The position numbers were made by a program, and so were the translations under genes. This document shows positions 1,322-34,446 of a DNA stretch of 54,246 bases, piece by piece (positions within the stretch are counted from its first letter, which is position 1; the number at the start of each line of letters is the position of its first letter). Source of the stretch: a virus; the IMG/VR virus record IMGVR_UViG_3300034198_004256, positions 1 through 54,246 of that record; one strand, given 5' to 3'. The notes beneath the pieces are model-generated. The model had not been told where the DNA came from. It worked only from the letters and a program-made list of their open reading frames with translations, and made no database searches.

Positions 1322-3082
1322 TTAGATCATTGCATATTGACCGAAGTTAATACCAAGCGTGATGTAGTAGATTTGCGGGAAGAAACCAGCTTCTACTAGA
1401 GCATAACGTGATTTAACTGCGATTTTTGGAGCCATTGTACCTTCTGCGATAGTTTGTACAGACTCTGCCATCAAGTAAGGCATGAATACCAAACCTGGAG
1501 AGTTAGCATCACCTTTTCTACCGATACAGATACGTGTGTCAGTCCATGCCATGTTAGGATCAACATAGATGTTAACACCTGCGATAGAACCGATTGGGTA
1601 AAGTGAACCAGCAGCTTGACTTACTGTGTTGCTAAGTGGGTAAGGTACGAAACCAGCGATGTCTTGTAGAGCTGAAGCAACTTGACCGTTTGTAACAGCG
1701 AAGTTAGCAGCACCACGACGACCGCGGATTGCGATAAGGTTAGCAGCAGCCAAGATCTTACTCATAATCTTACGTTGTAGTGTACCGCTGTTATCACCGC
1801 TGGTAGGAACAACTGAAGTTGTAGTAATAGAGATATTGTTGTTGCTGTATGCACCTTTACCTAGTGCGATAGCAGTTGTTGTAGATGTAGCCGCAATGTA
1901 CAGGTTAAGGTTAGTACCATCGATACTGTTAACTTGTTGAGCGTTTGTAGCACCTAGACGGAACAATCTTTCAAGAATGTTCTTGTTGATAGTTTGAGTC
2001 AATTCATTGATAAGAACTGCTTCAACTTGAGCAACTGCATCGATACCATATTGCTTAAGGTCTTGTACTTGTTCACGAGTTACAGCAGCTGCAACTTGTA
2101 CAGTGCTAGCAGCAACTGACTTGTTGAACAATTGTAGACCCATTAGGTTCTCCTTAGTAGATTCACCTTCTTCTCTCAAATATGGATCGTTAGATGTCAT
2201 ATCACCTTCTAAGAAACCGCGACCTGAGAAACCAGAGATGTGATCTTCTAGAGCCTTAACCAATTCTGGTGTAGCTTGTGTATCAGCGATATCACCTGTG
2301 TTCAAAGCATCACCTGAAGTAGAACTTACAATATACCAAGTATTTGCAGAGCTAAATACATCAGCTAGTGTGTAAGATGATGATGTTAGGTTACCAGTGC
2401 TATAGTTTTGTGGCCAAACAGCAGATGTTTCTTCAGCAGTTTCAACATAGAACATTGCATAACCATCAATACGTGAACGACCAATAAAAGTTAATTTATA
2501 AGGTACGACCTCACCTGAAGATGGAATAGAGTTGTTGTTACTGATGTAGAACACCTCATTAGCTACAGGCTCATAAGTAAAGAAATCATAAAGATCGGCT
2601 TTAATTGTGATAGGAGCTGTACGACCGTCTGCACCACCTAGACCGTTAACCGCTTGAGAAGGATCTGCAAAAGCACCACCTGCATAAGGGAAGTCAAGGT
2701 AAGTTAACATACCGAATGGTCCACCCATTGGTACTACTGGAACAAGGTCTAGACCTACAGTTTGAGCAGCAACTTGCATAGCAAGTGGAAGTAAGCTGAA
2801 TGGCTTATCACCTGAACCTGCGGTTTGTGCTGCGAAGTCAACGTTAAGACCAGGAGCACCAGGTGCAAATACTGGACCCATGCCTGGAACGTTCATACCT
2901 GGATTCATGTGAACGTAGTTGTATACGCTTTCGTTCAACATACCAGAGTCTTCTGCTAGTTTGTGGAAGTGGCAATACTTCGACATCCACTCAAGCTTGT
3001 TGGTATCGTGAATACCAGTTGCGCTTTCGATGATTGGAGCCCATGTAGCTTTAACTTCCGCTTCGTTAATCATTTGTAACAT
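1322..3082 (-). CDS. 23: Major capsid protein (T4 gp23-like)
   Basis: A 586-residue protein forming the head shell, close in size to T4 gp23 (521). It follows portal and protease in T4 order. The charged N-terminal segment ends in MLNE/S (residues 48-52), the position and type of site where T4 gp21 trims gp23; removal would leave a mature chain starting at about Ser52. Right after this comes NPGMNVPGMGP (60-70), which is nearly repeated in the gene at 22642-23082. Later segments (residues 440-586) have the Ala/Gly-rich capsid-fold look seen in T4-like capsids, including an IRGRRGAAN stretch. The start is ATG 3082; an in-frame ATG at 3073 is an alternative. The leader is A-rich without Shine-Dalgarno. 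Identification rests on context, size and the maturation site. Confidence 0.9.
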   Translation of the reverse strand: MLQMINEAEVKATWAPIIESATGIHDTNKLEWMSKYCHFHKLAEDSGMLNESVYNYVHMNPGMNVPGMGPVFAPGAPGLNVDFAAQTAGSGDKPFSLLPLAMQVAAQTVGLDLVPVVPMGGPFGMLTYLDFPYAGGAFADPSQAVNGLGGADGRTAPITIKADLYDFFTYEPVANEVFYISNNNSIPSSGEVVPYKLTFIGRSRIDGYAMFYVETAEETSAVWPQNYSTGNLTSSSYTLADVFSSANTWYIVSSTSGDALNTGDIADTQATPELVKALEDHISGFSGRGFLEGDMTSNDPYLREEGESTKENLMGLQLFNKSVAASTVQVAAAVTREQVQDLKQYGIDAVAQVEAVLINELTQTINKNILERLFRLGATNAQQVNSIDGTNLNLYIAATSTTTAIALGKGAYSNNNISITTTSVVPTSGDNSGTLQRKIMSKILAAANLIAIRGRRGAANFAVTNGQVASALQDIAGFVPYPLSNTVSQAAGSLYPIGSIAGVNIYVDPNMAWTDTRICIGRKGDANSPGLVFMPYLMAESVQTIAEGTMAPKIAVKSRYALVEAGFFPQIYYITLGINFGQYAMI

Positions 3083-3116: not shown

Positions 3117-4736
3117 TTATTTCTTGGTGTATTTTGCAAATCTGCCCTCTAGCTGAGACTTAAAACCTTCTAGATATTCATTATTTACTGCAGATTTCTC
3201 ATCAGCTGCTGCAACCTTAGACTCATTGATACGCTCAAGTTGAACTTGAGAATTTCTCAAATCTCTGGTTGACCAGAAATTAGCAATTAAGTAATCAGTT
3301 GAAAGATTGTAACGAGTAGACTCTACAATAATTTCATTTTTTCTAGATTCAGATAGTTTAGACCATTTCTCTATGTATTCATTAGGCATATGCTTAATGA
3401 AAGCTGGAGTATTATCTACTACCTCGGTTTTTACGCTCTCATTAATTGGTTGTGCGTCACCATTGTTTCCTGCTGTTTGCTTCTGAGCAGATTCGATTAA
3501 AAGTTGTAGTTTTTCAGAAATAGTCTTCTTATAGTCAACATTTTCTGTAACAGTATTATTAGTTGGTGCTGAAGTATTGTTATTAGCAATTTGATCTTCC
3601 TCATTTACACCAGTTAGTCTTTTATTTAGTTTATCTAGATTCTCACCTATATAGTTACTATAACCACCGACAGTTTCTAGATTTTCTTTTAGATAATCAG
3701 CGAACTTCACTACATTGTTTAGACCTTCTGTTAGATAATCATTGTGCTGTGCTAACTTATCCATGTTCTCAGAAAGATAGTTAGAGAACTCAATAATCTT
3801 CTCTGACTTTTCTGCGATTGACTCCGTGTACTGAATACCTTGATCGGCCTTTTCAGCTACATAGTTCATGTACTTCTCCATGTTATTAACACCTTCAACA
3901 ATATGATCGTTGTGTGTAATTACATTATCAAGATTCTCAGCTAAGAAATTAGTATAGCCATGAAGTTCATTTACCTTTTCTGCGATATGCTCAGCATATT
4001 TAACAACACCTTCATTAGCATTGTTATTTGTAATTGATTCTTTAACAGAGCTAAGTTGCTCATGTAATTTAGCCATTTCGGTAGCTAAGTATTGCGTGTA
4101 CTTATTAAAGTCCTCATTCTTGATATAATCAGACATGCTATTTGGAGAATTATTTTCTATTATGTTATATTTATCGTAATCAAAATTGCCAGGTAGCTCA
4201 AAAAGCTGTACGTCACTATCAGCATCTAAACCGAATGACTCGTTTACTCTTTTAAGTTCTGCGTTCTCAAATCCAGGATCTGCTACTAGGTCATAGGTAA
4301 AAAGCTTCTTGATCTTAACGTGACCATTGCTTTCTACTACACCTGCAGCTCTGCTTGAAATATGGATAGGAACACCGGCATCTACTAAAGCTTTAGCTTC
4401 ACGGCCAGCAGAAGTGTTAAGTAGTCTAATACGACCTCTTACTTGCTTACTGTTCTGATCATACTCAAGATTTTCAATAACGTGTGAAGCATTCTTAAGA
4501 GATATGTCAAAGTTTGAAGGATGATCTAACTCACCTAAAAGTTTACCACTTTTAATTTTTTCCTGTAAAGACTTGATCTGAGGTACATATTCACTCTCGT
4601 CATAGATGCGGTTATTCTTGTTCTTAACGCCAATTTCGCCGAAAACACCTTCTAAAACGTATTCGCCACCCTCGTTTTGAAAGGAAAGCTCGTTACTAGA
4701 ACGCTCTACTACTAATAAGTATTGATTATTTGCCAT
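3117..4736 (-). CDS. 21: Prohead maturation protease with long repeat tail (T4 gp21-like)
   Basis: A 539-residue protein, against about 212 in T4. Residues 1-170 are the herpesvirus-assemblin-type serine protease domain of gp21: GELDHPSN with the candidate catalytic His at 72, and HISSRAAG with the candidate Ser at 127/128. Then comes a tail with one isolated repeat (about 213-226), nine uninterrupted 14-residue repeats (247-372), a polar linker and a conserved-looking C-terminal helical region. RVNE/S, PINE/S and RINE/S match the putative cleavage motif, so self-processing is likely. I chose ATG 4736; an in-frame TTG at 4751 would add five residues, but the ATG has the usual A-rich leader. 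No separate gp22 scaffold gene is seen between portal and capsid, so the tail may do that job (inference). Confidence 0.9.
   Translation of the reverse strand: MANNQYLLVVERSSNELSFQNEGGEYVLEGVFGEIGVKNKNNRIYDESEYVPQIKSLQEKIKSGKLLGELDHPSNFDISLKNASHVIENLEYDQNSKQVRGRIRLLNTSAGREAKALVDAGVPIHISSRAAGVVESNGHVKIKKLFTYDLVADPGFENAELKRVNESFGLDADSDVQLFELPGNFDYDKYNIIENNSPNSMSDYIKNEDFNKYTQYLATEMAKLHEQLSSVKESITNNNANEGVVKYAEHIAEKVNELHGYTNFLAENLDNVITHNDHIVEGVNNMEKYMNYVAEKADQGIQYTESIAEKSEKIIEFSNYLSENMDKLAQHNDYLTEGLNNVVKFADYLKENLETVGGYSNYIGENLDKLNKRLTGVNEEDQIANNNTSAPTNNTVTENVDYKKTISEKLQLLIESAQKQTAGNNGDAQPINESVKTEVVDNTPAFIKHMPNEYIEKWSKLSESRKNEIIVESTRYNLSTDYLIANFWSTRDLRNSQVQLERINESKVAAADEKSAVNNEYLEGFKSQLEGRFAKYTKK
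3621..3998 (-). repeat. Nine tandem 14-residue repeats inside gp21
   Basis: Nine consecutive units of exactly 14 residues, of the form [Y/F/H]-x-x-[Y/F/H/S]-[I/L/V]-x-E-[N/K/G]-x-[D/N/E]-x-x-x-x. Examples are YTNFLAENLDNVIT, FSNYLSENMDKLAQ and YSNYIGENLDKLNK. Spacing is perfect at protein level but the DNA copies have diverged. A 14-residue period is two heptads, consistent with a continuous coiled coil. Confidence 0.9.
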
Positions 4737-4758
4737 ATTTATGTTGCGCAATTTTTTG

Positions 4759-18829: not shown

Positions 18830-20686
18830 TTATTTTATTTCACATGCACCTCCTGCACAGGCTACTTCACCTTTAAGATCTGTATTGTCTTCTATTTCAA
18901 TGATTTTAGATAGATCAACCTTTGTTAAAGATTTCATCATTTCATTGTATTTCTCTTCAGTACAGTCTTCGAAAGGAGCTTGTATGTAAGTGCCTCCATC
19001 ATATGGTAATACAGAAAGTCCGTTGTAACAGTTTCTATTTTCCCACATCCATTCACCAACTCCGTCCCATTCGTCTTGCTTGATACTTACAGTAGCTGAG
19101 ATATTATGGGTATTCATTCCGCCTCTATGGCCAGGCTTAATCCAGTTATTGTAGAACCATTTAACTCTTTCTAATAGATCGTATGCTGATTCGTGTCTAA
19201 TGATAGAACCTGCCGGAGCTTTCTGTGGAATAGAGATAACAGCCGTATCATGAGGTCTGAAGTACTCATCTTCTACTAATTCAGGATGGTAAATAGAAAG
19301 ATATTGATAGATTGCTTCATTTTTACCTACTCTGATTCGGCGCATATAGAAATCATTATGCCATGCATGTATACCGGATGAGCAGCCTAATGTCAAAGAA
19401 CTTGTACCTGCTGGTTTGATAGTTGTAACACGTGCAGCTTTATTGATACCAAGTAGATCTGCTACTCTAGCGTTTTCAGTTTTGGCGCAATCTGCGGCCT
19501 CTTTTAAAGAGAACTTCTGAGCTTTACCACTACCGATGCCAGTTAAACCGATACCTACAAGTGCGTCTTTCTCAGTAGTACGTTGCCATATTGGACGTAA
19601 ATAATGGAAGTCTGTGTAACCGGCTTGTAATGTACCAATAAATGTAGCAGCTGTTACACGTGCATTAAGATCTTCTTGTGATTCAACATCTGATACGTTT
19701 ACTTCAGTTAGGTTACAGAACTGATAAGGACGTAGTGCAATTTCACAACAAGGATTAGTACCCCAATCTTTATCATTAGTAAAGTAGATGCCTGGTTCGC
19801 CTGAGCCTGAAGCCTCAATTTTCTTCCATAGATCTAGGAAAAACTCTTTAGTAACTTTGTTTCTAACAAGAACTGCAGAGTTATTAGCACGACCTCTTTG
19901 TGAGTTTAATTCCCACCAGCTACCAGACTTACATGAAATCATATCTTCGTCATCAGCACTAAAAAGGCTAATAAGAGCTGCTCTACGAATACCTCCTGCA
20001 AGTACTGCATCTGCAATATGGCATATAATATCATGTACCTCAATTGTTGTAAGCTTATCATTGTTTTGCTTTTGTGATAAAATACCTTCGATTTTAATTA
20101 AGCACTCTTTAAGAGGTTGCGGGCCTGGGGCTTTACCACCTGATGTGATAAGTTTAGCACCCTTTGGTCGAATATCTCTAAAGTCAAATTCAATAGTTGA
20201 GCCACCGTGAAAATAAGACTTCATCAATACCTTGATTGAATCAGCCCAACCCTCGATGCTGTCTGCAACTAGAAATCTTCTTTTACGATTTGGATTAGGT
20301 CTGTTGATTTCAGGTAGATCTTCAACGTGATGTTTCTGAACACTGAAACCTACACCAGTTCCGCCTAGCAATAGGAACATCACCTCACCAAATGAGCGCC
20401 AGTCATCTACAGGTAGATACGCACAGTTGTAAATTCTATTTGGTGAAATTTCAATTGGCTTACCGCCGAATTGTAAAGATCTCATTGACGGTAGAACCAT
20501 TTTACCGTATACAGCTTTGTACTTTTCTCTGATCTCATCTTCAAGTACTGGGTACTTCTTGATGTGCATCTCCATGTTACGAGTTACTAACTCTTCCCAT
20601 GTTTCTCTTCTCTCAAACTCAGGTAGATACCTTGAGTATTTCATGTGCACCGTAATGTCACTGAGGATCTCGTTGGATAATTCCAT
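18830..20686 (-). CDS. nrdJ: Adenosylcobalamin-dependent (class II) ribonucleotide reductase
   Basis: A 618-residue single-chain reductase making deoxynucleotides for phage replication. It resembles the Lactobacillus-type ribonucleoside-triphosphate reductase. Cys88 (YNCAYLP) and Cys324 (QFCNL) are the substrate-site pair. NPCCE (311-315) gives the Asn, thiyl Cys313 and Glu315. LLGGTGVGFSVQ follows the family pattern. A C-terminal Cys610/Cys615 pair (CAGGAC) shuttles electrons. No small subunit is needed or present. It is shorter than the 739-residue Lactobacillus enzyme, so an allosteric part may be reduced. Unlike T4's oxygen-dependent class I enzyme it works without oxygen but needs B12 from the host. 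It lies between the two polymerase genes. Confidence 0.93.
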   Translation of the reverse strand: MELSNEILSDITVHMKYSRYLPEFERRETWEELVTRNMEMHIKKYPVLEDEIREKYKAVYGKMVLPSMRSLQFGGKPIEISPNRIYNCAYLPVDDWRSFGEVMFLLLGGTGVGFSVQKHHVEDLPEINRPNPNRKRRFLVADSIEGWADSIKVLMKSYFHGGSTIEFDFRDIRPKGAKLITSGGKAPGPQPLKECLIKIEGILSQKQNNDKLTTIEVHDIICHIADAVLAGGIRRAALISLFSADDEDMISCKSGSWWELNSQRGRANNSAVLVRNKVTKEFFLDLWKKIEASGSGEPGIYFTNDKDWGTNPCCEIALRPYQFCNLTEVNVSDVESQEDLNARVTAATFIGTLQAGYTDFHYLRPIWQRTTEKDALVGIGLTGIGSGKAQKFSLKEAADCAKTENARVADLLGINKAARVTTIKPAGTSSLTLGCSSGIHAWHNDFYMRRIRVGKNEAIYQYLSIYHPELVEDEYFRPHDTAVISIPQKAPAGSIIRHESAYDLLERVKWFYNNWIKPGHRGGMNTHNISATVSIKQDEWDGVGEWMWENRNCYNGLSVLPYDGGTYIQAPFEDCTEEKYNEMMKSLTKVDLSKIIEIEDNTDLKGEVACAGGACEIK

Positions 20687-20744: not shown

Positions 20745-22148
20745 TTAAGCCTTTTCTTTCAGTTTTTCCGAAATCTTTTCTAATTCCATTTTGTATTCAA
20801 ACATCTTTTTCTTATATTCACGTCTCTTTGCATATAGATCAGTAAGTACAAGCTTAAGAATTGATGGTTCTTTTGTATAAACACCGCCTGCTGAAGTGAC
20901 TGTAAATTTTTCTTTATCGTATTCATCAGCTTTACTCTGGGGTACCATATCAACATAAGAATCTGGTGATATATTAAATTGACGCATAATAGATGGGTAT
21001 AGAGAGGCAAAGTCAAAACAGGCTACCGCTCTATGTTTACCAACAACTGGCTGCTTAACAAAAGCACCAGTATATTGCTCATTCTTTTCTTTCTCTTTTT
21101 GATATGGCTTAACTGCCATTACTTTACCTTCAGCAAGAAGATTTCTTGCAATAAGAGATTCAGTGATCGCTACAGGAGAACCTGCTTTATAGAAACTGAT
21201 CTTACAGATATTAGAGAGCGTGAGTACTACTTGTAATGTCTTAAGCTTTTGGTCCATCAAGTATACTAGAATACTGTCTACTGCATTATAGTAAAGATAC
21301 TTTTGATAGTCATCTTCATACAGCTGCTGTAAGCCACCGTCGTATTTAATTTTACCAACTCCGATTGTTTGCATTGCTGCGGTATTCAACTGATTGTTTT
21401 CTTTAACAGCGATGCTTCGATCCCAGTTAGAATATAGATCCATGTAATCGACAATACCTATATGGTACGGCAGACCATCTCTTGTTAGAGTGCCAGTTGG
21501 CGATGCTTCAGCAGGATCAATCTGTAGGCGCTTACATCTGTTTACAATATATTTCCAGTCAAAGTTGATACAGTTCCAACCACTGAGCATTGGAAACTTT
21601 GGCATAAACTTATTGATGAACGTATAGACTAGATCATATTCAGTATTGAACTTAATGTATTTGATTTCCCAGTTAATACCGAATTTCTCAAAGTATTTGT
21701 TGGTATCAGCTTTAACCTTTTCTTGCGCTTTCTGATCAAAGTCTTTTAGACCCAACACGATAACCTGATGATTTGGTGTAACTACAGAGATGGTTAAAAT
21801 TTTATTATTTGCTAACTCAGGTTCTGGGAAACCATCAGTTACTTCAGTTTCAATATCGAAAAAGAAAGTCTTCGGGAAATTATACCCGAAGATCTTTTCA
21901 CTATCTTCCTGTGGAAGTCTTTCGATAAATTCAATCAAACCATGTTTAGATATCTTCTTTTCATATGATGCTCTTACTGGCTTACCATCCCAATTTATAT
22001 TATGGACGCTTCTACGCTTATCTGTATCTTCACAGGTATACCAGTTTGGGAATTGAGTAGTGTCGTATGTTTTTAATTCAACATCACCATTCTCATTGAA
22101 AAAACTAAATGTAACTTGATACTCAAGTTGTTCGATATCTAAAAGCAT
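20745..22148 (-). CDS. 43A: DNA polymerase gp43, N-terminal part: proofreading exonuclease plus motif A
   Basis: A 467-residue polypeptide. It has an N-terminal domain, then the 3'-5' exonuclease with ExoI FDIET (Asp98, Glu100), ExoII NCINFD (Asp197) and ExoIII YYNAVD (Asp291). Polymerase motif A follows at DFASLYPS (379-386). The chain stops after one fingers helix (AKRREYKKKMFEYKMELEKI). Motifs B and C are on the gene at 16588-17742, three kilobases downstream. The end is a clean stop (TAA at 20747-20745) and no remnant of the missing part follows. Exonuclease residues are all present, so proofreading should be active. Confidence 0.95.
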   Translation of the reverse strand: MLLDIEQLEYQVTFSFFNENGDVELKTYDTTQFPNWYTCEDTDKRRSVHNINWDGKPVRASYEKKISKHGLIEFIERLPQEDSEKIFGYNFPKTFFFDIETEVTDGFPEPELANNKILTISVVTPNHQVIVLGLKDFDQKAQEKVKADTNKYFEKFGINWEIKYIKFNTEYDLVYTFINKFMPKFPMLSGWNCINFDWKYIVNRCKRLQIDPAEASPTGTLTRDGLPYHIGIVDYMDLYSNWDRSIAVKENNQLNTAAMQTIGVGKIKYDGGLQQLYEDDYQKYLYYNAVDSILVYLMDQKLKTLQVVLTLSNICKISFYKAGSPVAITESLIARNLLAEGKVMAVKPYQKEKEKNEQYTGAFVKQPVVGKHRAVACFDFASLYPSIMRQFNISPDSYVDMVPQSKADEYDKEKFTVTSAGGVYTKEPSILKLVLTDLYAKRREYKKKMFEYKMELEKISEKLKEKA

Positions 22149-22641: not shown

Positions 22642-23082
22642 TTATTTGTCAGATTGTTTAAGAAACTCGTCGAACTTGTTTGGTGTAAATGAAATTGCGG
22701 TTACGCCTTTTTTCTTACCCATCTTCATAAGTTTCTTATCCTTTGTGGAATATGGAGCTGGAACATCACCAGAACCTACTGTGCCATATGGACCTACTTC
22801 TGGTACAACAATTGGACCCATACCACCAACGTTCATACCTGGGTTTGGATGTACTCTGGCATAGTCTTCGTTTAGAAAGCTTTCAAATGTAGGTATAAAG
22901 TTCTCTTTAGTTTCAGGTAAACCCTTATGTTTAGTTGAAGCAAAATCTTTAAGTTGCTTCTTAGTCATACCCTGTGCCAACTGAGCGACTTTATCACTAA
23001 CCTCATCTGGATCCTTCTTACCTGTCTTAACAGCATAAGCTTGACCCATTAAACGCTGTTGTGCTTTACTTTGTGCTGGCAT
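22642..23082 (-). CDS. DUF3008-like protein fused to a copy of the gp23 N-terminal arm
   Basis: A 146-residue protein in three parts. Residues 1-55 (MPAQSKAQQRLMGQAYAVKT... MTKKQLKDFASTKHKGLP) match the DUF3008 family, small basic proteins of unknown function. Residues 61-72 (NFIPTFESFLNE) resemble the capsid-targeting leaders of neighbouring genes plus a maturation site. Residues 79-90 (PNPGMNVGGMGP) with a later GSGDVP nearly copy the segment right after the cleavage site in gp23. The C-terminus is Lys-rich. It overlaps the next gene by one base (TAATG). It may be a minor or internal capsid protein that docks through the gp23 arm motif (inference). Confidence 0.7.
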   Translation of the reverse strand: MPAQSKAQQRLMGQAYAVKTGKKDPDEVSDKVAQLAQGMTKKQLKDFASTKHKGLPETKENFIPTFESFLNEDYARVHPNPGMNVGGMGPIVVPEVGPYGTVGSGDVPAPYSTKDKKLMKMGKKKGVTAISFTPNKFDEFLKQSDK

Positions 23083-23528
23083 TAGTTATCTTCATTTAAT
23101 TTACTTTGCTTAACGGTATATGTCTTACCATTAAACTCGAAAGTCTTTTCACCTTTCTCCCTGGCCTCTTTAAGTGCTAAAAGAAATGCATTGCCTTCAC
23201 TGATCATAGTACCATCTTTAACTCTTTCCCAGATCTTTAAACCGTAAGAAGATAATTTTACACCTTCTTTAGTTACATTGAATAAATGGCTATTTCTAGT
23301 AGACCATCTTCCATGTGCACCTGTTTCTGAAAGTATTCTTTGGAACTCTTCTTCTGTGATAACACCATCTTTGATTGAGCCTATTACTACATTTCTAACT
23401 GCAGCTTTTTCATTAGCAAATCTAGCAGGATAATTATCTGTATAACCTCTCTTATAGATTACTTTACCCTCGTTAACTGGGTTAAAATTTTCATTTATGA
23501 ATTGTTCAAACGTTTGATAATTTTTCAT
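23082..23528 (-). CDS. Small basic protein with capsid-targeting-like leader
   Basis: A 148-residue protein not recognised by family. The N-terminus MKNYQTFEQFINENFNPVNE/GK combines a T4-like capsid-targeting pattern (T4 internal proteins start MKTYQEFIAE) with a PVNE/G site at residue 20/21. The remainder is basic (YKRGYTDNYPARFANEKAAVRN) and might be winged-helix-like around residues 45-110. It ends KLNEDN. Probably packaged in the head and trimmed by gp21 (inference). It is adjacent to other proteins with the same leader. Confidence 0.65.
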   Translation of the reverse strand: MKNYQTFEQFINENFNPVNEGKVIYKRGYTDNYPARFANEKAAVRNVVIGSIKDGVITEEEFQRILSETGAHGRWSTRNSHLFNVTKEGVKLSSYGLKIWERVKDGTMISEGNAFLLALKEAREKGEKTFEFNGKTYTVKQSKLNEDN

Positions 23529-23554: not shown

Positions 23555-26500
23555 TCATCTTTTAGAAACCGCTCCTGATGTAAGTCCTATACCCGATGAG
23601 TAAGCATTACTAGTATCACCTTTAGTCTCAAAGTGATAGTCTGCTGTACCTAGATCTTTGGCAATGAATATCATTTCATTCTTTTTAATTTCCATTATTA
23701 AGTATGCTTGAACAGTATCTACTGAAAGTCTAACTAGGTTAGAAATAGGTCCAGAATAGTTTTGATTAAGGTACTTAACAACCATTGTAGATAAAGGGTA
23801 CATTACACAAGAGAAGACGACTTGATCGCTTAAGCTATCCCATTCTTCGTATAGTGATTCAGGTGTTAGAGATTTTGAAGAGAAGTTATCACAAGCTTTC
23901 CAGAGTTCGGTGTAGAACTTTATAAACTTGGTTTTATTATTATGAAGGGTATACAAAAACTCTATTACTGCGCTTTTTGTTACACCTGTATTTGAATCTA
24001 ATTTAGACTCCTGTATAAAGTAATACCAACCTGTACCTTTATTATAAAGGAATTTATTCGACATGTCTGTATAAAAGTCAAGTGAACTTAATTCAACAAT
24101 AGGTAATAAGATATTATCATATACGTATTGCTCATCTTTAGTTGGGACAATTACACCTGCATCTACTTCAATTTTAAGGCGATCTACAAATCCACTTGCT
24201 GAAGCTGTGCCACCTTTTGTACCTGCCTTTGATGAAATGTTAGCACCATCGAAGTAAAAATCAACAAGCTTGGCATTTGATGCAGATGGGTAAACGGTAC
24301 CAGACGTATTGTCTTTAACTACGTTAAACAAATGGATCGCACCTAGAATCTCACCGAAATCGTTTGCAAAGTTACTGATAGAAATCTGATCAATTCCAGC
24401 AGTTATTTTAGTATCGATTGAATATGAGTGTTTTTGATTACCTGATATACATGCCTTCATAAATGCATTTATGTCATCATAAGTATCAGCATTTGATGTA
24501 TTATTCTTAATGGTTTCCATTAAACCTATAGCAAACGCTTTATACTCAGCAGGTATTTTAAGTTTGTTGATTGCACTTTTTGATGCTCCGATTAAATCTT
24601 CAACCTTAGGGTATGAAGCACCAGGTTTTGCTAACTCTAATTTATCTGGTGTTGTATCTTTTTTACCTATTACTGCTGCTGATCCACCTCCTTTCTTTTC
24701 AGGTGTTTTATCTACAATAACTATTGCATCACCTCTTTTGTAATCTACACCGCCTACTGTAACACCTTTCTTGAACTTTATATGATATGCCCAGAATGTG
24801 CCTGAGTATTTAGGTTTTTGATCACCAGGTGCAAAACCTTCTATGATGTATTCCTTTTCTGATACACCTATAGTAGTTAACATTGCTTTGATATTTTCAA
24901 CTGCAACTTCAGTTCCTCCAAATATAGCTTTAAGTACTTCACCCTCTTCTGCGCTTACTTTAACGCCGGTTAATTTTGTACTTTTAACCCATGCATCGTA
25001 TATAGTACCCCATTCATCGCGCTCTTTTTTAGGAGCAGAACCTTCAAAAATAGGTTCATTGTTTTCTCCGATGAAATCATTAAAAGTTAAAAGATTAAAT
25101 AATTCATTTTCTTTAACAGCCTGTATAATGGTTTTAAGCTCCTCATACATCTTGTGCATGCCTTTCGGAGTCATCTTCTTGAAAGTCGCCTCATCATCTA
25201 TCTTTAAGGCCTCTCTGACCTTGGTAGCACTAACATCCTCTTCACCTCTTTTAATTTCAAATGCATCTAGTTCAGGTAGAGCATTTAACTCTTCTTTGTA
25301 CTTGTCGATTTGATATTTGTATGCTTTAAGTCTATCTGTACCTGCACCCCATAGAACTGGCTCGTATGCAGGTCTAAGGGCATTGTATATTGTATCGATA
25401 CCTGCTGTACCGATTACTGCAGCTCCTTCAACCATTTTGTTATGATCTTGTATAGCACCAATCATTGCTAATTGGGTATCTTCATCAAACGGATTCTTAG
25501 CAGGATCTGCTTTAGTACCTCTTACAACAAGTATAAATGTTGGTAAGCCGTTTGCTTTATACAATTGCTCTACAACTTTCATATGACCTTCAGTAAACGG
25601 CTGGAATCTACCTGCTAATATGTTTACTTTTTTTGTACCTCTTTCGGTTGTATTAAGTTTAAGTGCCTCGTTAATATCTACAATGCTTTCAAATATAGAA
25701 GATACATTTTCAATCTGAGATCTCTTTAAGTAATTATTGAAATCTAATACCTGATTCTCCTCTGGCATAAGTTCTACCTTACCTTGGATTTTTGTAATGA
25801 TATCGTTTAGAACATCTACTATTTGCTTTGTCAATATAGGAGTTGTGTTCTTTCTAAATTTTCTAAATGAACTGATGATGATTTTGAAAAGATCGTTAAG
25901 CTTACTATTTTTAAGTATCTCTCTGGTTCTTTCATTTGGTATAGTAGCCAGGTTAATATCGAACTCAGGTTTCTTTGCAAAATCTGGTGTTTCAAAATCT
26001 ACACCGATGTATTTATGTCCGTTTTTCTGGATATAGTCATTAAATATAATCGACATGAGCTCGATGTATCTTTCATCTGGAGCTTCACCATTAAGCTGTA
26101 TTGAACTTATATCGTATACCTCCATAAATTCAATAATGTCTAACATCGCAATCTGATACATGTCATTAGCCATTCTATTAACAGGCGTTGTAACATTCAT
26201 AGAATGCTGATGAAATATAGGGTCTATAAGACGTGCTGTGTATACCTCACTTTCACCTGGTGTGATAAACTTAAACACAATACCTTCGATCGGTTTATCA
26301 AGATCATTCATTAACATACTGGTTCTTAAACCAGAATTTAGAATGTTTATCATGAATCTTGTAAATGATTGTGTCTGGAATTGCTTCTGTAATTCGCTTT
26401 CAGGTGTACTTAAGTATGAAGTAATTCTATCCTTCTGTAGTTGATCTAGAAAGCCATTGAAAATAATCGGCGGCTTTTCTACATCTAGTTTTTTTGACCA

Positions 26501-26923
26501 GTCATTCAAAATCCTAGGATCTGATATAGTCTTTAAGACTCTTCCGTTACCATTGGTTATTTGAATATCTGTAAGTACTAGATTATTATGCGGTGTTCTA
26601 TCATACACCATATTTACAGGAGAGTTAGAAGGGAAGTATTGGAAGCCAAATGACCAGTTGTCAGGTATCTCTGCAATGACTTCCGCTCCTAATGTTTCAA
26701 AATGTGAAATAGCCTTTTCATAGAATATCATCATAGTCCTGTCAATAAAATTAACAGGTTTACCATCTTTCTTACAGAAGGTTATTGAATTATCCATATT
26801 TTTAAGTATGGATAACCGTGAACCATCTAGCTGCTCACTAATTATTACATATTTAGTAAACAGATTCTGTATAAAGTTTTGACCTTTGTCTTTAAAGATA
26901 TCCTTAAGATTGATAAGAGCCAT
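23555..26923 (-). CDS. Multidomain protein: degenerate ligase-like, NMN adenylyltransferase-like and C-terminal unknown domains
   Basis: A 1,122-residue protein. Residues 1-250 look like the covalent nucleotidyltransferase (RNA/DNA ligase) fold. Motif I reads EQLDGSR, with Gln31 where the lysine nucleophile should be; motif IV is EGIVFKF (213-219). After a helical region come SIFE/S (409-413) and DINE/A (416-420). Residues 432-600 are a NadM/NMNAT-type cytidylyltransferase-fold domain: GRFQPFTEGH (438-447), NPFDEDTQLAMI and VSATKVREAL (564-573). Then LLTFNDFIGENNEPIFE/G (611-628) resembles the leader and site of the neighbouring ligase-like protein. The rest is unknown, with E858, D888 and SSK (897-899) spaced a little like a PD-(D/E)xK nuclease. 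It overlaps the upstream gene by one base. A head-packaged polyprotein is my inference. Confidence 0.75.
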   Translation of the reverse strand: MALINLKDIFKDKGQNFIQNLFTKYVIISEQLDGSRLSILKNMDNSITFCKKDGKPVNFIDRTMMIFYEKAISHFETLGAEVIAEIPDNWSFGFQYFPSNSPVNMVYDRTPHNNLVLTDIQITNGNGRVLKTISDPRILNDWSKKLDVEKPPIIFNGFLDQLQKDRITSYLSTPESELQKQFQTQSFTRFMINILNSGLRTSMLMNDLDKPIEGIVFKFITPGESEVYTARLIDPIFHQHSMNVTTPVNRMANDMYQIAMLDIIEFMEVYDISSIQLNGEAPDERYIELMSIIFNDYIQKNGHKYIGVDFETPDFAKKPEFDINLATIPNERTREILKNSKLNDLFKIIISSFRKFRKNTTPILTKQIVDVLNDIITKIQGKVELMPEENQVLDFNNYLKRSQIENVSSIFESIVDINEALKLNTTERGTKKVNILAGRFQPFTEGHMKVVEQLYKANGLPTFILVVRGTKADPAKNPFDEDTQLAMIGAIQDHNKMVEGAAVIGTAGIDTIYNALRPAYEPVLWGAGTDRLKAYKYQIDKYKEELNALPELDAFEIKRGEEDVSATKVREALKIDDEATFKKMTPKGMHKMYEELKTIIQAVKENELFNLLTFNDFIGENNEPIFEGSAPKKERDEWGTIYDAWVKSTKLTGVKVSAEEGEVLKAIFGGTEVAVENIKAMLTTIGVSEKEYIIEGFAPGDQKPKYSGTFWAYHIKFKKGVTVGGVDYKRGDAIVIVDKTPEKKGGGSAAVIGKKDTTPDKLELAKPGASYPKVEDLIGASKSAINKLKIPAEYKAFAIGLMETIKNNTSNADTYDDINAFMKACISGNQKHSYSIDTKITAGIDQISISNFANDFGEILGAIHLFNVVKDNTSGTVYPSASNAKLVDFYFDGANISSKAGTKGGTASASGFVDRLKIEVDAGVIVPTKDEQYVYDNILLPIVELSSLDFYTDMSNKFLYNKGTGWYYFIQESKLDSNTGVTKSAVIEFLYTLHNNKTKFIKFYTELWKACDNFSSKSLTPESLYEEWDSLSDQVVFSCVMYPLSTMVVKYLNQNYSGPISNLVRLSVDTVQAYLIMEIKKNEMIFIAKDLGTADYHFETKGDTSNAYSSGIGLTSGAVSKR

Positions 26924-28188
26924 TATCTTCCGTATTTAATAATTCCCATTAGTTGGTTAATTGCAGCGAACGTACCAGTTAATTTGTACATACCGCCTTT
27001 GTATTTGAAAACAAGACCTTCAGTAGGTATGATAGACTCTATACCACCGATACGTGCAAGTCTAGCCAATTCTGATTCAACTTTCTCAATCTGCTTAGTG
27101 TCACCATTCAATTTAATGGCTTCAGCTTCTTTTCTAATTGTATCGTGTAGTCTTTGCTTCTCTGCATCAGGTGAAAGAGCTAAAAAGTTAGAAGCGTTCT
27201 TAAGAACAACTGATCCTAATTCTAAGAATAGATCTTCGAACGGTCTGATATTCTCTTTATACTTCTTTTTAACGTCTTCTTTATCGTACTTCTTGATAGC
27301 TTCCATCTCTTCAGGTGATATCATTTTAGCAAGAGCTCTAAGATCTAATGACTTCTTATCATCATAAGCCCATCTCAACACTAAACCATCTTTAATAGCC
27401 TGTTCAAGCTTAGGGAATGATTTGTCTATTTCTTTTCTCCACCACATTTCATGGTATTTAGAAACAGGATCACCCGCTGCAAGCTTAAACTCACTTTGTA
27501 GTTTATCAACCTTTTGCATGAAGTAACCTTTCTTAGCATCGAAGTCCGCTTCTTTAGCAACTTTAAGAGCTTGTGGTGGAATGATTTCAAATACATCACC
27601 GATATGGTTGTTAGCATCCTTAATCATTTTTGCAAGATCTTTTGCTGAAGCATTATCTTCACCTACAATGTTACCTTGACCATCAGTCTTCTTAATACCG
27701 TGGAATTGGATAACATCTCTATCGTAATTGATAACGTTTGAGTTCTTTGAATAGATAAGCTCCATATTCATGAAGTTCATGCCATTTTCAAAGTATGCAT
27801 CTTGTGTCTTTTTAGATAAACCCTCTAAACCTTTAGCTAAATCTTTAGCAGCAAGTGTAAATGTCTCTCTAACCATCTCTGAAGGATGATCTGCAAACAT
27901 AGTGTTAACACCATCAAGGCTTATTGGATCTTTAAGCTGACCCTTATTACGAGCAAACATTGCTTTACCGTCCTTAACAGTGGCAAATATATTTTGACCA
28001 TCGGTCTTTTCAGTTGGATCCTCCTCGAAGTTCAACTCGCCTGTAAGACCGGCTTCAATCATTTTTCTAAAATCATCAAACGTAAGATCAGCATCATCAA
28101 AGGGGTGCATCATATGACCTGCTGCACCGCCTTCGAAAATGGGTTGATACATCTCGTTAACGAATGACTCGAACGATAGTAATTTCAT
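26923..28188 (-). CDS. RNA/DNA ligase-like nucleotidyltransferase with capsid-targeting-like leader
   Basis: A 421-residue protein. The leader MKLLSFESFVNEMYQPIFE/GG fits the capsid-targeting pattern and putative cleavage site at 19/20. The rest carries ligase-superfamily motifs: motif I EKTDGQN with Lys61 as the expected AMP-accepting residue, NMELIYS (motif III, Glu143), EGLVFK (motif IV, 390-395) and YKLTG with Lys402 (motif V). Motif IV and V lie at the extreme C-terminus because of a long helical insertion (about 170-370). Whether it joins RNA, DNA or another substrate cannot be read. It is followed by a paralogue-like domain lacking the lysine in the next gene. Likely a packaged nucleic-acid repair enzyme (inference). 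Confidence 0.75.
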   Translation of the reverse strand: MKLLSFESFVNEMYQPIFEGGAAGHMMHPFDDADLTFDDFRKMIEAGLTGELNFEEDPTEKTDGQNIFATVKDGKAMFARNKGQLKDPISLDGVNTMFADHPSEMVRETFTLAAKDLAKGLEGLSKKTQDAYFENGMNFMNMELIYSKNSNVINYDRDVIQFHGIKKTDGQGNIVGEDNASAKDLAKMIKDANNHIGDVFEIIPPQALKVAKEADFDAKKGYFMQKVDKLQSEFKLAAGDPVSKYHEMWWRKEIDKSFPKLEQAIKDGLVLRWAYDDKKSLDLRALAKMISPEEMEAIKKYDKEDVKKKYKENIRPFEDLFLELGSVVLKNASNFLALSPDAEKQRLHDTIRKEAEAIKLNGDTKQIEKVESELARLARIGGIESIIPTEGLVFKYKGGMYKLTGTFAAINQLMGIIKYGR

Positions 28189-28192
28189 TGTA

Positions 28193-28615
28193 TTATCCTT
28201 TATTTAACATTCCGATTAAAGAACCGTAATCGTCTCCTTTCTTTTTGGCAAGAAGACCATCTGCAACTTCTTTTGCTTTAGCCTCATCGAAATCATCTGG
28301 ATGCTGTTGCTTAAGGATAGTATTTACGTACTCTCTAAACTCATCATCTGACTTAATATCAGCTTCATTTAATTCAGTACCCTTAGAAGCGCCTGCTAAT
28401 TCATTCATAGCATCTGCGCTAAATAATTTCTCTAAAAATGCACCTTTATTCTCTTCAGAAATTTCAGATGGGTTAGTAACATCAAATTCCCTAAGAAGGT
28501 TTTCAAATGCCATTGACATTGATTTTTGTGTTTGTGTTTTTTGCTCAGTCATCTTAGCCTCTGATTGAGATTTAACGTGCTGAGAAAAACTTTCAAATGA
28601 TAGTAAATTTTTCAT
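28193..28615 (-). CDS. Small acidic protein with capsid-targeting-like leader
   Basis: A 140-residue protein of unknown family. MKNLLSFESFSQH closely parallels the leader of the adjacent ligase-like protein (MKLLSFESFVNE). The rest is charged and helical, with an ELNE/A site at residues 81-85 and an Asp/Glu/Lys-rich second half. It may be an internal head or core protein processed by gp21. Starts and ends are unambiguous and it lies four bases from the next gene. Confidence 0.65.
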   Translation of the reverse strand: MKNLLSFESFSQHVKSQSEAKMTEQKTQTQKSMSMAFENLLREFDVTNPSEISEENKGAFLEKLFSADAMNELAGASKGTELNEADIKSDDEFREYVNTILKQQHPDDFDEAKAKEVADGLLAKKKGDDYGSLIGMLNKG

Positions 28616-28629
28616 TTTTCTATTTTTGT

Positions 28630-28914
28630 TTATTTGGGGTTTTCATCTTTATTATCTAAACGGCTTTGCATATAACTATGTACCGTTTCAATATAATCTG
28701 CTGCTGTTGTAATCTTACTTTGAACCCATGCTTCTAGATCTTTTACGTTACCTATAAGATTGATTAACTCGCTTGCATGGTCGATGGTTGTCTTTAATTG
28801 ACCGATTGCCATCTCTTGCTCTTCAGACATATCACCTTTAGCCATATCCTTTGGAATTAAGCTTAAGTCTGCTGTATCTTCTTTTATAAAATCTGAGTAA
28901 TTCTTAACAGGCAT
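28630..28914 (-). CDS. Small helical protein, leader weakly capsid-targeting-like
   Basis: A 94-residue protein, not recognised. MPVKNYSDFIKED partly fits the K-x-Y-x-x-F-I-x-E pattern of T4 internal head proteins. The rest is predicted helical (AIGQLKTTIDHASELINLIGNVKDLEAWVQSKITTAADYIETVHSYM). It is first in the block of putative head-packaged proteins; a TATATA lies 15 bases before its ATG, directly against the uvsW stop. Confidence 0.6.
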   Translation of the reverse strand: MPVKNYSDFIKEDTADLSLIPKDMAKGDMSEEQEMAIGQLKTTIDHASELINLIGNVKDLEAWVQSKITTAADYIETVHSYMQSRLDNKDENPK

Positions 28915-34083: not shown

Positions 34084-34446
34084 TTAAATACGAGAACCAA
34101 GTGCAGAACCTAATGCAGCACCGACTAAGCGACTTGTAAGCATATCATAAAGAATACCAGGGCCTACACCTAAGACTTTAGCTATAATTTTACCTACAGA
34201 TGAACCTAAAGCAAAACCTGCAAGACCACCTAAAATAGAACCGATAAAACCTTCATTCATAATATCCTGCTGAAGATCTTCCATAGTTTTACCCTTACTT
34301 AGATAATCTGATACAAAGCGATCTATGGCTTCATCAATTTGACGTTCTTGATCCGGCGTTAATTCAGTTACATAACTTTCATTTAAGGCTAAAATTTCCT
34401 CACTGAAGTTAATCTTCTCTACAATAAATTCATTATAAGTCTTCAT
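34084..34446 (-). CDS. Glycine-zipper protein with capsid-targeting-like leader
   Basis: A 120-residue protein. Its first ten residues, MKTYNEFIVE, differ only slightly from the MKTYQEFIAE leader of T4 internal head proteins. ALNE/S (20-24) and IMNE/G (62-66) fit the putative gp21 cleavage motif. After the second site the remaining 55 residues are Gly/Ala/Leu-rich with GxxxG-type spacing (GSILGGLAGFALGSSVGK, then LVGAALGSALGS), typical of glycine-zipper membrane-inserting segments. I infer a packaged protein whose trimmed C-terminal peptide could enter a membrane during DNA delivery. Confidence 0.7.
   Translation of the reverse strand: MKTYNEFIVEKINFSEEILALNESYVTELTPDQERQIDEAIDRFVSDYLSKGKTMEDLQQDIMNEGFIGSILGGLAGFALGSSVGKIIAKVLGVGPGILYDMLTSRLVGAALGSALGSRI

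Follow-up and report, generated by a model that had tools for sequence, protein, structure and literature searches.

A small phage DUF3008 protein with a copy of the N-fist of its own major capsid protein, and counterparts in T4 and other phages

A DUF3008 protein in the window carries a segment of gp23

The window, meaning the whole 54,246-nt stretch of viral DNA analysed (IMG/VR record IMGVR_UViG_3300034198_004256), encodes on its minus strand the major capsid protein gp23, a head maturation protease and a 146-residue DUF3008 protein. The relevant features are:

22642–23082, minus strand: 146-residue DUF3008 protein with a mimic of the gp23 N-fist (ORF; PF11450, E = 1.6e-11; relatives 97–90% identical in contigs L001–L004)
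22906–23076, minus strand: DUF3008 domain, residues 3–59, three predicted helices (Pfam and AlphaFold2)
22867–22887, minus strand: maturation-like site FESFLNE, residues 66–72, predicted cut after E72 (from sequence)
22759–22866, minus strand: N-fist mimic, residues 73–108, DYARVHPNPGMNVGGMGP...GSGDVP (similarity to gp23; tracks own gp23)
22645–22758, minus strand: basic tail and C-terminal NKFDEFLK helix, residues 109–146 (from sequence)
1322–3082, minus strand: gp23, the major capsid protein that is imitated (PF07068, E = 3e-31; phrog_28442, E = 5e-101)
2801–2929, minus strand: mature N-terminus of gp23, residues 52–94, equivalent of the T4 N-fist (66–91) (Pfam register)
3117–4751, minus strand: head maturation protease, presumed to do the processing (PF03420, E = 2e-11; phrog_207, E = 4e-37)

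The 146-residue protein matched PF11450 with 44.6 bits (gathering score, 24; domain length, 57 residues), and its PHROG matches were of the DUF3008 type only. It matched neither PF07068, the HK97-type capsid domain, nor the profiles of the T4 gp61.1 family (phrog_1823/2086). It has no N-terminal capsid-targeting sequence, its FESFLNE being internal. AlphaFold2 predicted a helical DUF3008 head (pLDDT ∼75–87 for residues 1–50) and gave a pLDDT of ∼50 in the fist region. Foldseek searches with the predicted structures returned no matches, no solved chain matched the protein, and DUF3008 was not found mentioned in the openly licensed papers searched. A late-promoter scan of the window and of the region near T4 61.1 gave chance-level results only.

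Several neighbouring genes were noted. Immediately before the DUF3008 region lies a 1122-residue ORF (23555–26923, minus strand), part of which resembles nucleotidyltransferases (phrog cytidyltransferase). In S-SCSM1, a cyanophage, the gene two places before that of its DUF3008 protein encodes an NMN adenylyltransferase annotated as a virion protein. The DNA polymerase is apparently split into two adjacent minus-strand ORFs (18830–20686 and 20745–22148), the 467-residue one stopping soon after the FDFASLYPSI region. Five further minus-strand ORFs (23082–23528, 26923–28188, 28193–28615, 28630–28914 and 34084–34446) have N-termini resembling T4-type capsid-targeting sequences (MKNYQTFEQFINE, MKLLSFESFVNE, MKNLLSFESF, MPVKNYSDFIKE and MKTYNEFIVE). 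These N-termini suggest that the five form a group of internal head proteins without an assigned function.

A sequence-only reading of the window had proposed that the 146-residue protein carries, after FLNE, the residue series found in mature gp23. Alignment bore this out. Nucleotides 22813–22845 encode residues 80–90 of the small protein, NPGMNVGGMGP, and 2873–2905 encode residues 60–70 of gp23, NPGMNVPGMGP. The full match pairs LNE/DYARVHPNPGMNVGGMGPIVVPEVGPYGTVGSGDVP of the small protein (E72 to P108; the preceding F gives FLNE) with LNE/SVYNYVHMNPGMNVPGMGPVFAPGAPGLNVDFAAQTAGSGDKP of gp23 (E51 to P94), such that the copy, directly after the FLNE of the DUF3008 protein, covers about 43 residues from the start of mature gp23. 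The Smith–Waterman score was 92, as compared to a mean of 33 for shuffled sequences (s.d. 4.8; maximum of 65 among 2000; Gumbel p ∼1e-7) and 40 for the next-best ORF of the window. When all six frames of the window were searched with the small protein, gp23 was the sole other match (E = 2.5e-5). The same reading had also considered the DNA to be close, with ggaccca and a second shared word six bases on in both genes. The actual gap is 7 bases, and the closeness is not special: identical residues use the same codon in 10 of 15 cases, near the 7.1 predicted from codon usage. The likeness is therefore at the protein level.

The copied segment corresponds to the N-fist

In the Pfam register, residue 97 of the window gp23 corresponds to position 8 of the model, whose position 1 is T4 residue 88. 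Residues 89–94 thus fall at T4 residues 87–92, and the mimic spans T4 residues 66–92, ending at the start of the gp23 N-arm. The register rests on Pfam coordinates because hhalign of far-T4 against T4 gp23 aligned the C-terminal half only; the AlphaFold2 model of gp23 was too poor at residues 30–154 for placing the fist.

In T4, the N-fist comprises gp23 residues 66–91, touches four subunits and forms only on expansion. It is described for gp23 and lacking in gp24; in the five gp23 subunits that face the portal, it is disordered (PMC9958956, PMC7136217). In the prohead, the gp23 N-termini lie inside and are disordered, becoming ordered only in the expanded shell (PMC9958956). The mimic shares with the T4 N-fist its sequence pattern and its position after the protease cut, a cut that is predicted in the mimic. 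However, the fist of gp23 is joined to a capsid subunit, whereas the mimic is part of a separate small protein without an N-arm or HK97 fold.

T4 gp61.1 and cyanophage proteins carry corresponding copies

When the T4 genome was scanned with the N-terminus of its own gp23, gp61.1 (NP_049649.1; phrog_1823/phrog_2086; annotated as ‘hypothetical’) was detected with E = 2.7e-6, the next match being at 6.1; reversed-query nulls in such own-gp23 scans gave 0.3 or worse. The T4 pair reads FIKE/DMVAGDSGGNPENISIGTTSGAVVNKGP in gp61.1 and FLTE/AEIGGDHGYNATNIAAGQTSGAVTQIGP in gp23. Like the window protein, gp61.1 consists of a maturation-like site, a copy of its own gp23 residues 66–92 and a lysine-rich tail. 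Unlike it, gp61.1 has 54 residues and no DUF3008 domain, is encoded near primase gene 61 and has no detectable homology to the window protein beyond the fist. As many as 1,440 phage records contain matches to genes of the gp61.1 type, a figure in which some matches may be to gp23 itself. In T4 and the seven relatives inspected, such a gene lies near the one for primase. Longer versions have a front part of ∼115 residues.

A search of the PDB with gp61.1 matched only gp23 itself and a ribosomal protein, so that gp61.1 is in no solved structure. The openly licensed literature mentions gp61.1, and no function for it was found there; it is absent from the T4 core list in PMC9958956. Some homologues (in phages such as Boboto and KNP5) bear the GenBank annotation ‘major capsid (domain-containing) protein’; phrog_696, which the S-SCSM1 mimic matches, is named ‘major head protein’. 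These names are likely misannotations via fist likeness. The capsid-protein names on gp61.1 homologues indicate that automated pipelines pick up the likeness without comment.

In cyanophage S-SCSM1, a genome scan with the N-terminus of its own gp23 detected SSCSM1_97 (E = 7e-6). Both SSCSM1_97 and the DUF3008 protein of this phage are labelled ‘virion protein’ in GenBank, and the published study of this phage identified 45 proteins by mass spectrometry in CsCl-purified virions (PMC9602691). For this one phage, the label and these data of others support the presence of the mimic in virions. In ACG-2014d, the mimic NE/SPTMSAGTGGFSGSSAATGPVAGFDPVL and the gp23 sequence TE/APTMAAGTGGFSGGSTATGPVAGFDPVL are identical at 24 of 28 positions. 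SSCSM1_97 and the ACG-2014d and S-SSM6b proteins resemble the window protein in carrying a fist copy of their own gp23; unlike in the window protein, the fist of the latter two is at the N-terminus of a protein of >170 residues. Only one gp23-type protein was found in the cyanophages.

The fist copy is modular, widespread and not universal

A fist/arm profile was searched over 51 whole records; many of the contigs analysed are fragments. Two matches occurred in 29 of the 51 records, always gp23 and one other ORF, and three occurred in none. At most one other arm-bearing ORF was found per record, so that the motif does not show the spread through unrelated non-virion proteins which the sequence-only reading had named as telling against it. 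This second ORF varies, being a DUF3008 protein, a small neighbouring gene or an unrelated protein. In Group B fragments (up to 78 kb), gp23 was the sole match, which carries no weight because these fragments are incomplete.

Residues 73–90 of the mimic, the first 18 of the fist, are invariant in six related contigs. L001–L004 have the architecture of the window protein. In L005 and L006, an inserted domain of ∼140 residues separates the LNE/fist from a first FINE/FVNE site, such that cleavage at the two maturation-like sites would free it as a separate piece; these DUF3008 genes lie at L005:10001–10861 and L006:4045–4905. In L007, the fist stands behind a different, non-DUF3008 N-terminal part. 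Since the fist moves between contexts in L001–L007, it is a unit of its own. We rejected the idea that it is a DUF3008-specific trait: many DUF3008 proteins have no fist (S-SCSM1_93, L151–L158, L165–L168, L204–L213), and the fist occurs on other proteins (L007, L276–L289). Where the DUF3008 protein lacks a fist, another ORF of the same genome has one, close by in several contigs (L276, L277, L284). The fist ORF of PTm1 adjoins the protease and gp23 genes, and LR756501, LR745206 and Lak-C1 have short fist-bearing ORFs. The LR756504 mimic, found with its own gp23, is a weak match (E = 0.42). The mimic is not universal: own-gp23 scans of eight genomes detected none in PAU, MA9V-2, MaF61 or S-PM2, and a weak candidate in pT24.

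An E stands directly before the mimic in all 27 tabulated phages, this residue being the closest upstream E judged plausible on visual inspection, and a hydrophobic residue occupies P3 in 23 of them. The distance from the E to the fist equals that in gp23 in 15 of the 27 phages and is within two residues of it in 22. Most mimics have a K/R-rich stretch after the fist.

The mimic changes with the gp23 of its own phage

DUF3008 proteins from other phage groups have different fists, each similar to the gp23 on the same contig, as in L196; fists on other ORFs follow their own gp23 likewise. Mimic and own gp23 read, respectively, VTNTPGMGNVVPA..GSGDIF and LLNTPGMGNVAPA..GSGDKF in L196, SGMGAVSSAQPGGLAGTT and SGMGAVVAAQPASLAGTT in LR745206, and ESYGQQPPSASVGMGAVELPKVS and ESYGSQGPEAVPGMGAVKLPSVS in PTm1. 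In Lak-C1, a 63-residue frame reads IGVGDPVPFG..GSGDRF and gp23 reads LGVGDPVPAG..GSGDKY, the usual GMG being replaced in both.

For 15 pairs from seven clades, whichever of the 96 sets of representatives was used, the own pairing ranked first, without a tie, among 5040 possible pairings; it also outscored the crossed pairing in 93 of 93 cross-clade quartets. Among 19 phages, a set that omits those whose mimic came from an own-gp23 search (as in LR756504, T4 and S-SCSM1), none of 200,000 random pairings reached the observed own-pairing total. The optimal assignment was the own gp23 for 16 of the 19; the remaining three were exchanged within Straboviridae, where the mimic fails to separate own from sister gp23. 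Alignment of both genes in relatives, the check that the sequence-only reading had proposed, shows the mimic tracking its own gp23. The copy is not confined to DUF3008 proteins and also occurs in T4 (gp61.1), cyanophages and megaphages.

Residues identical between mimic and gp23 used the same codon in 91 of 211 cases (expected, 93.9 ± 6.9). Silent sites are therefore randomised while the protein likeness persists: the likeness is kept by protein-level selection and changes lineage by lineage with gp23.

Proposed role of the mimics

We consider it probable that the 146-residue protein is one form of a widespread group of head proteins in phages, which supply a copy of the gp23 N-fist in trans and dock with it in the shell. 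A copy maintained at the protein level beside a protease-type site, followed by basic residues and changing with gp23, most simply contacts neighbouring gp23 subunits. The earlier proposal that the protein imitates the gp23 arm to use the same shell site accordingly stands as the best-supported explanation, with the amendment that the copied part is the N-fist and not the arm in its entirety. It is strengthened by the coevolution seen across many phages, by the randomisation of synonymous sites, by the conserved register of the maturation site and by the virion-protein label in a cyanophage.

In the mechanism that we propose, the mimic precursor would enter the prohead, where the head protease would cut after the E preceding the copy, in the register of gp23, and free the N-terminus of the mimic. 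On shell expansion, as the N-termini of gp23 fold into fists that clamp neighbours, the mimic could dock in an equivalent fist site. This would most plausibly be a site without a fist of its own, around the portal or, where gp24 exists, beside the fist-less gp24 pentamers. Docking may anchor the basic tail or fused domain of the mimic to the shell; candidate roles are to seal the surroundings of the portal or pentamers and to tether DNA or a cargo domain. As the sole or general reason, a gap due to gp24 was rejected, because the cyanophages yielded one gp23-type protein only. More tentatively, and with somewhat less than even confidence, we suggest that mimics plug fist sites left empty at symmetry breaks, the portal vertex above all, and tie DNA-binding tails or cargo to the shell, gp61.1 being an overlooked component of the T4 head.

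The shared fist might instead act earlier, as a packaging or scaffold-binding signal common to gp23 and the mimic, which would then never enter the finished lattice. The internal position of the gp23 N-termini in the prohead fits such a signal, as does the presence in many mimics of additional motifs of the head-targeting type, preceding or following the fist. We nevertheless judge it unlikely: the T4 N-termini become ordered only in the expanded shell, targeting of T4 internal proteins relies on a 10-residue propeptide that is removed (PMC9026906) and not on a fist, and the five other window ORFs with targeting-type N-termini have no fist. A soluble decoy against gp23-sensing host defences, or a brake on gp23 assembly, seems more improbable still. 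Capsid-sensing host defences exist, and a decoy could account for a single copy per genome closely tracking gp23; yet it would need no in-register maturation site, basic tail or place in the virion, and the version in S-SCSM1 carries a virion-protein label.

There is slight reason to regard the stretch as a recognition element of the head protease beyond the cut. It always follows a cut-like site, but the likeness spans 28–43 residues and is lineage-specific, and the other targeting-type ORFs of the window lack it after their cut-like sites (scores of 12–28 vs 92). Least credible is a functionless origin, by recent duplication or gene conversion of the 5′ end of gp23 or by chance: the two window genes have short DNA words in common, but the score of the window match excludes chance, many lineages have retained the fist, on differing host proteins, and codon identity at the level of random choice led us to reject recent copying or gene conversion.

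Several known head proteins invite comparison with docking mimics. As proposed for the mimics, T4 IPI–III are short proteins that enter the prohead and are cut there by the head protease, gp21, and gp61.1 starts with MKTFKEFIKE; unlike in the mimics, the mature parts of IPI–III are not known to copy gp23, and the site of the window protein is internal. Soc and gp24 resemble the proposed role in acting at capsomer interfaces or vertices. By contrast, Soc binds outside, between hexamers, and gp24, a paralogue with the full HK97 fold, has no N-fist. We know of no described head protein that works by copying the fist of its own capsid protein, and found none in the openly licensed literature. Mimics would constitute a new class of head protein, less so if they are ordinary cement proteins; the 146-residue protein falls within the class by its E directly before a fist copy that tracks its own gp23.

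Few virus shells have been studied as thoroughly as the T4 head, and a gene kept across relatives imitates its shell-locking segment with no role assigned. If the mimic docks as an N-fist, this would explain gp61.1 and genes of unknown function in cyanophages, Bacteroidetes phages and megaphages, bear on what fills mismatched vertex positions, and provide a natural means by which a protein of choice could be anchored within the shell or across it. As the mimic of T4 is gp61.1, its role is directly testable in that phage.

Second, shorter gp23-like ORFs (259–316 residues) were also observed, at G039:C1:12368–12601, G053:C1:144709–144930, G057:C1:180978–181256 and G067:C1:170951–171226; they may be candidates for vertex proteins in jumbo phages. 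Similarly, the Vibrio phages nt-1 (201296–202135) and D482 (65778–66644) encode gp23-like ORFs of 301–303 residues that lack the middle of the Gp23 model, in addition to a full-length gp23.
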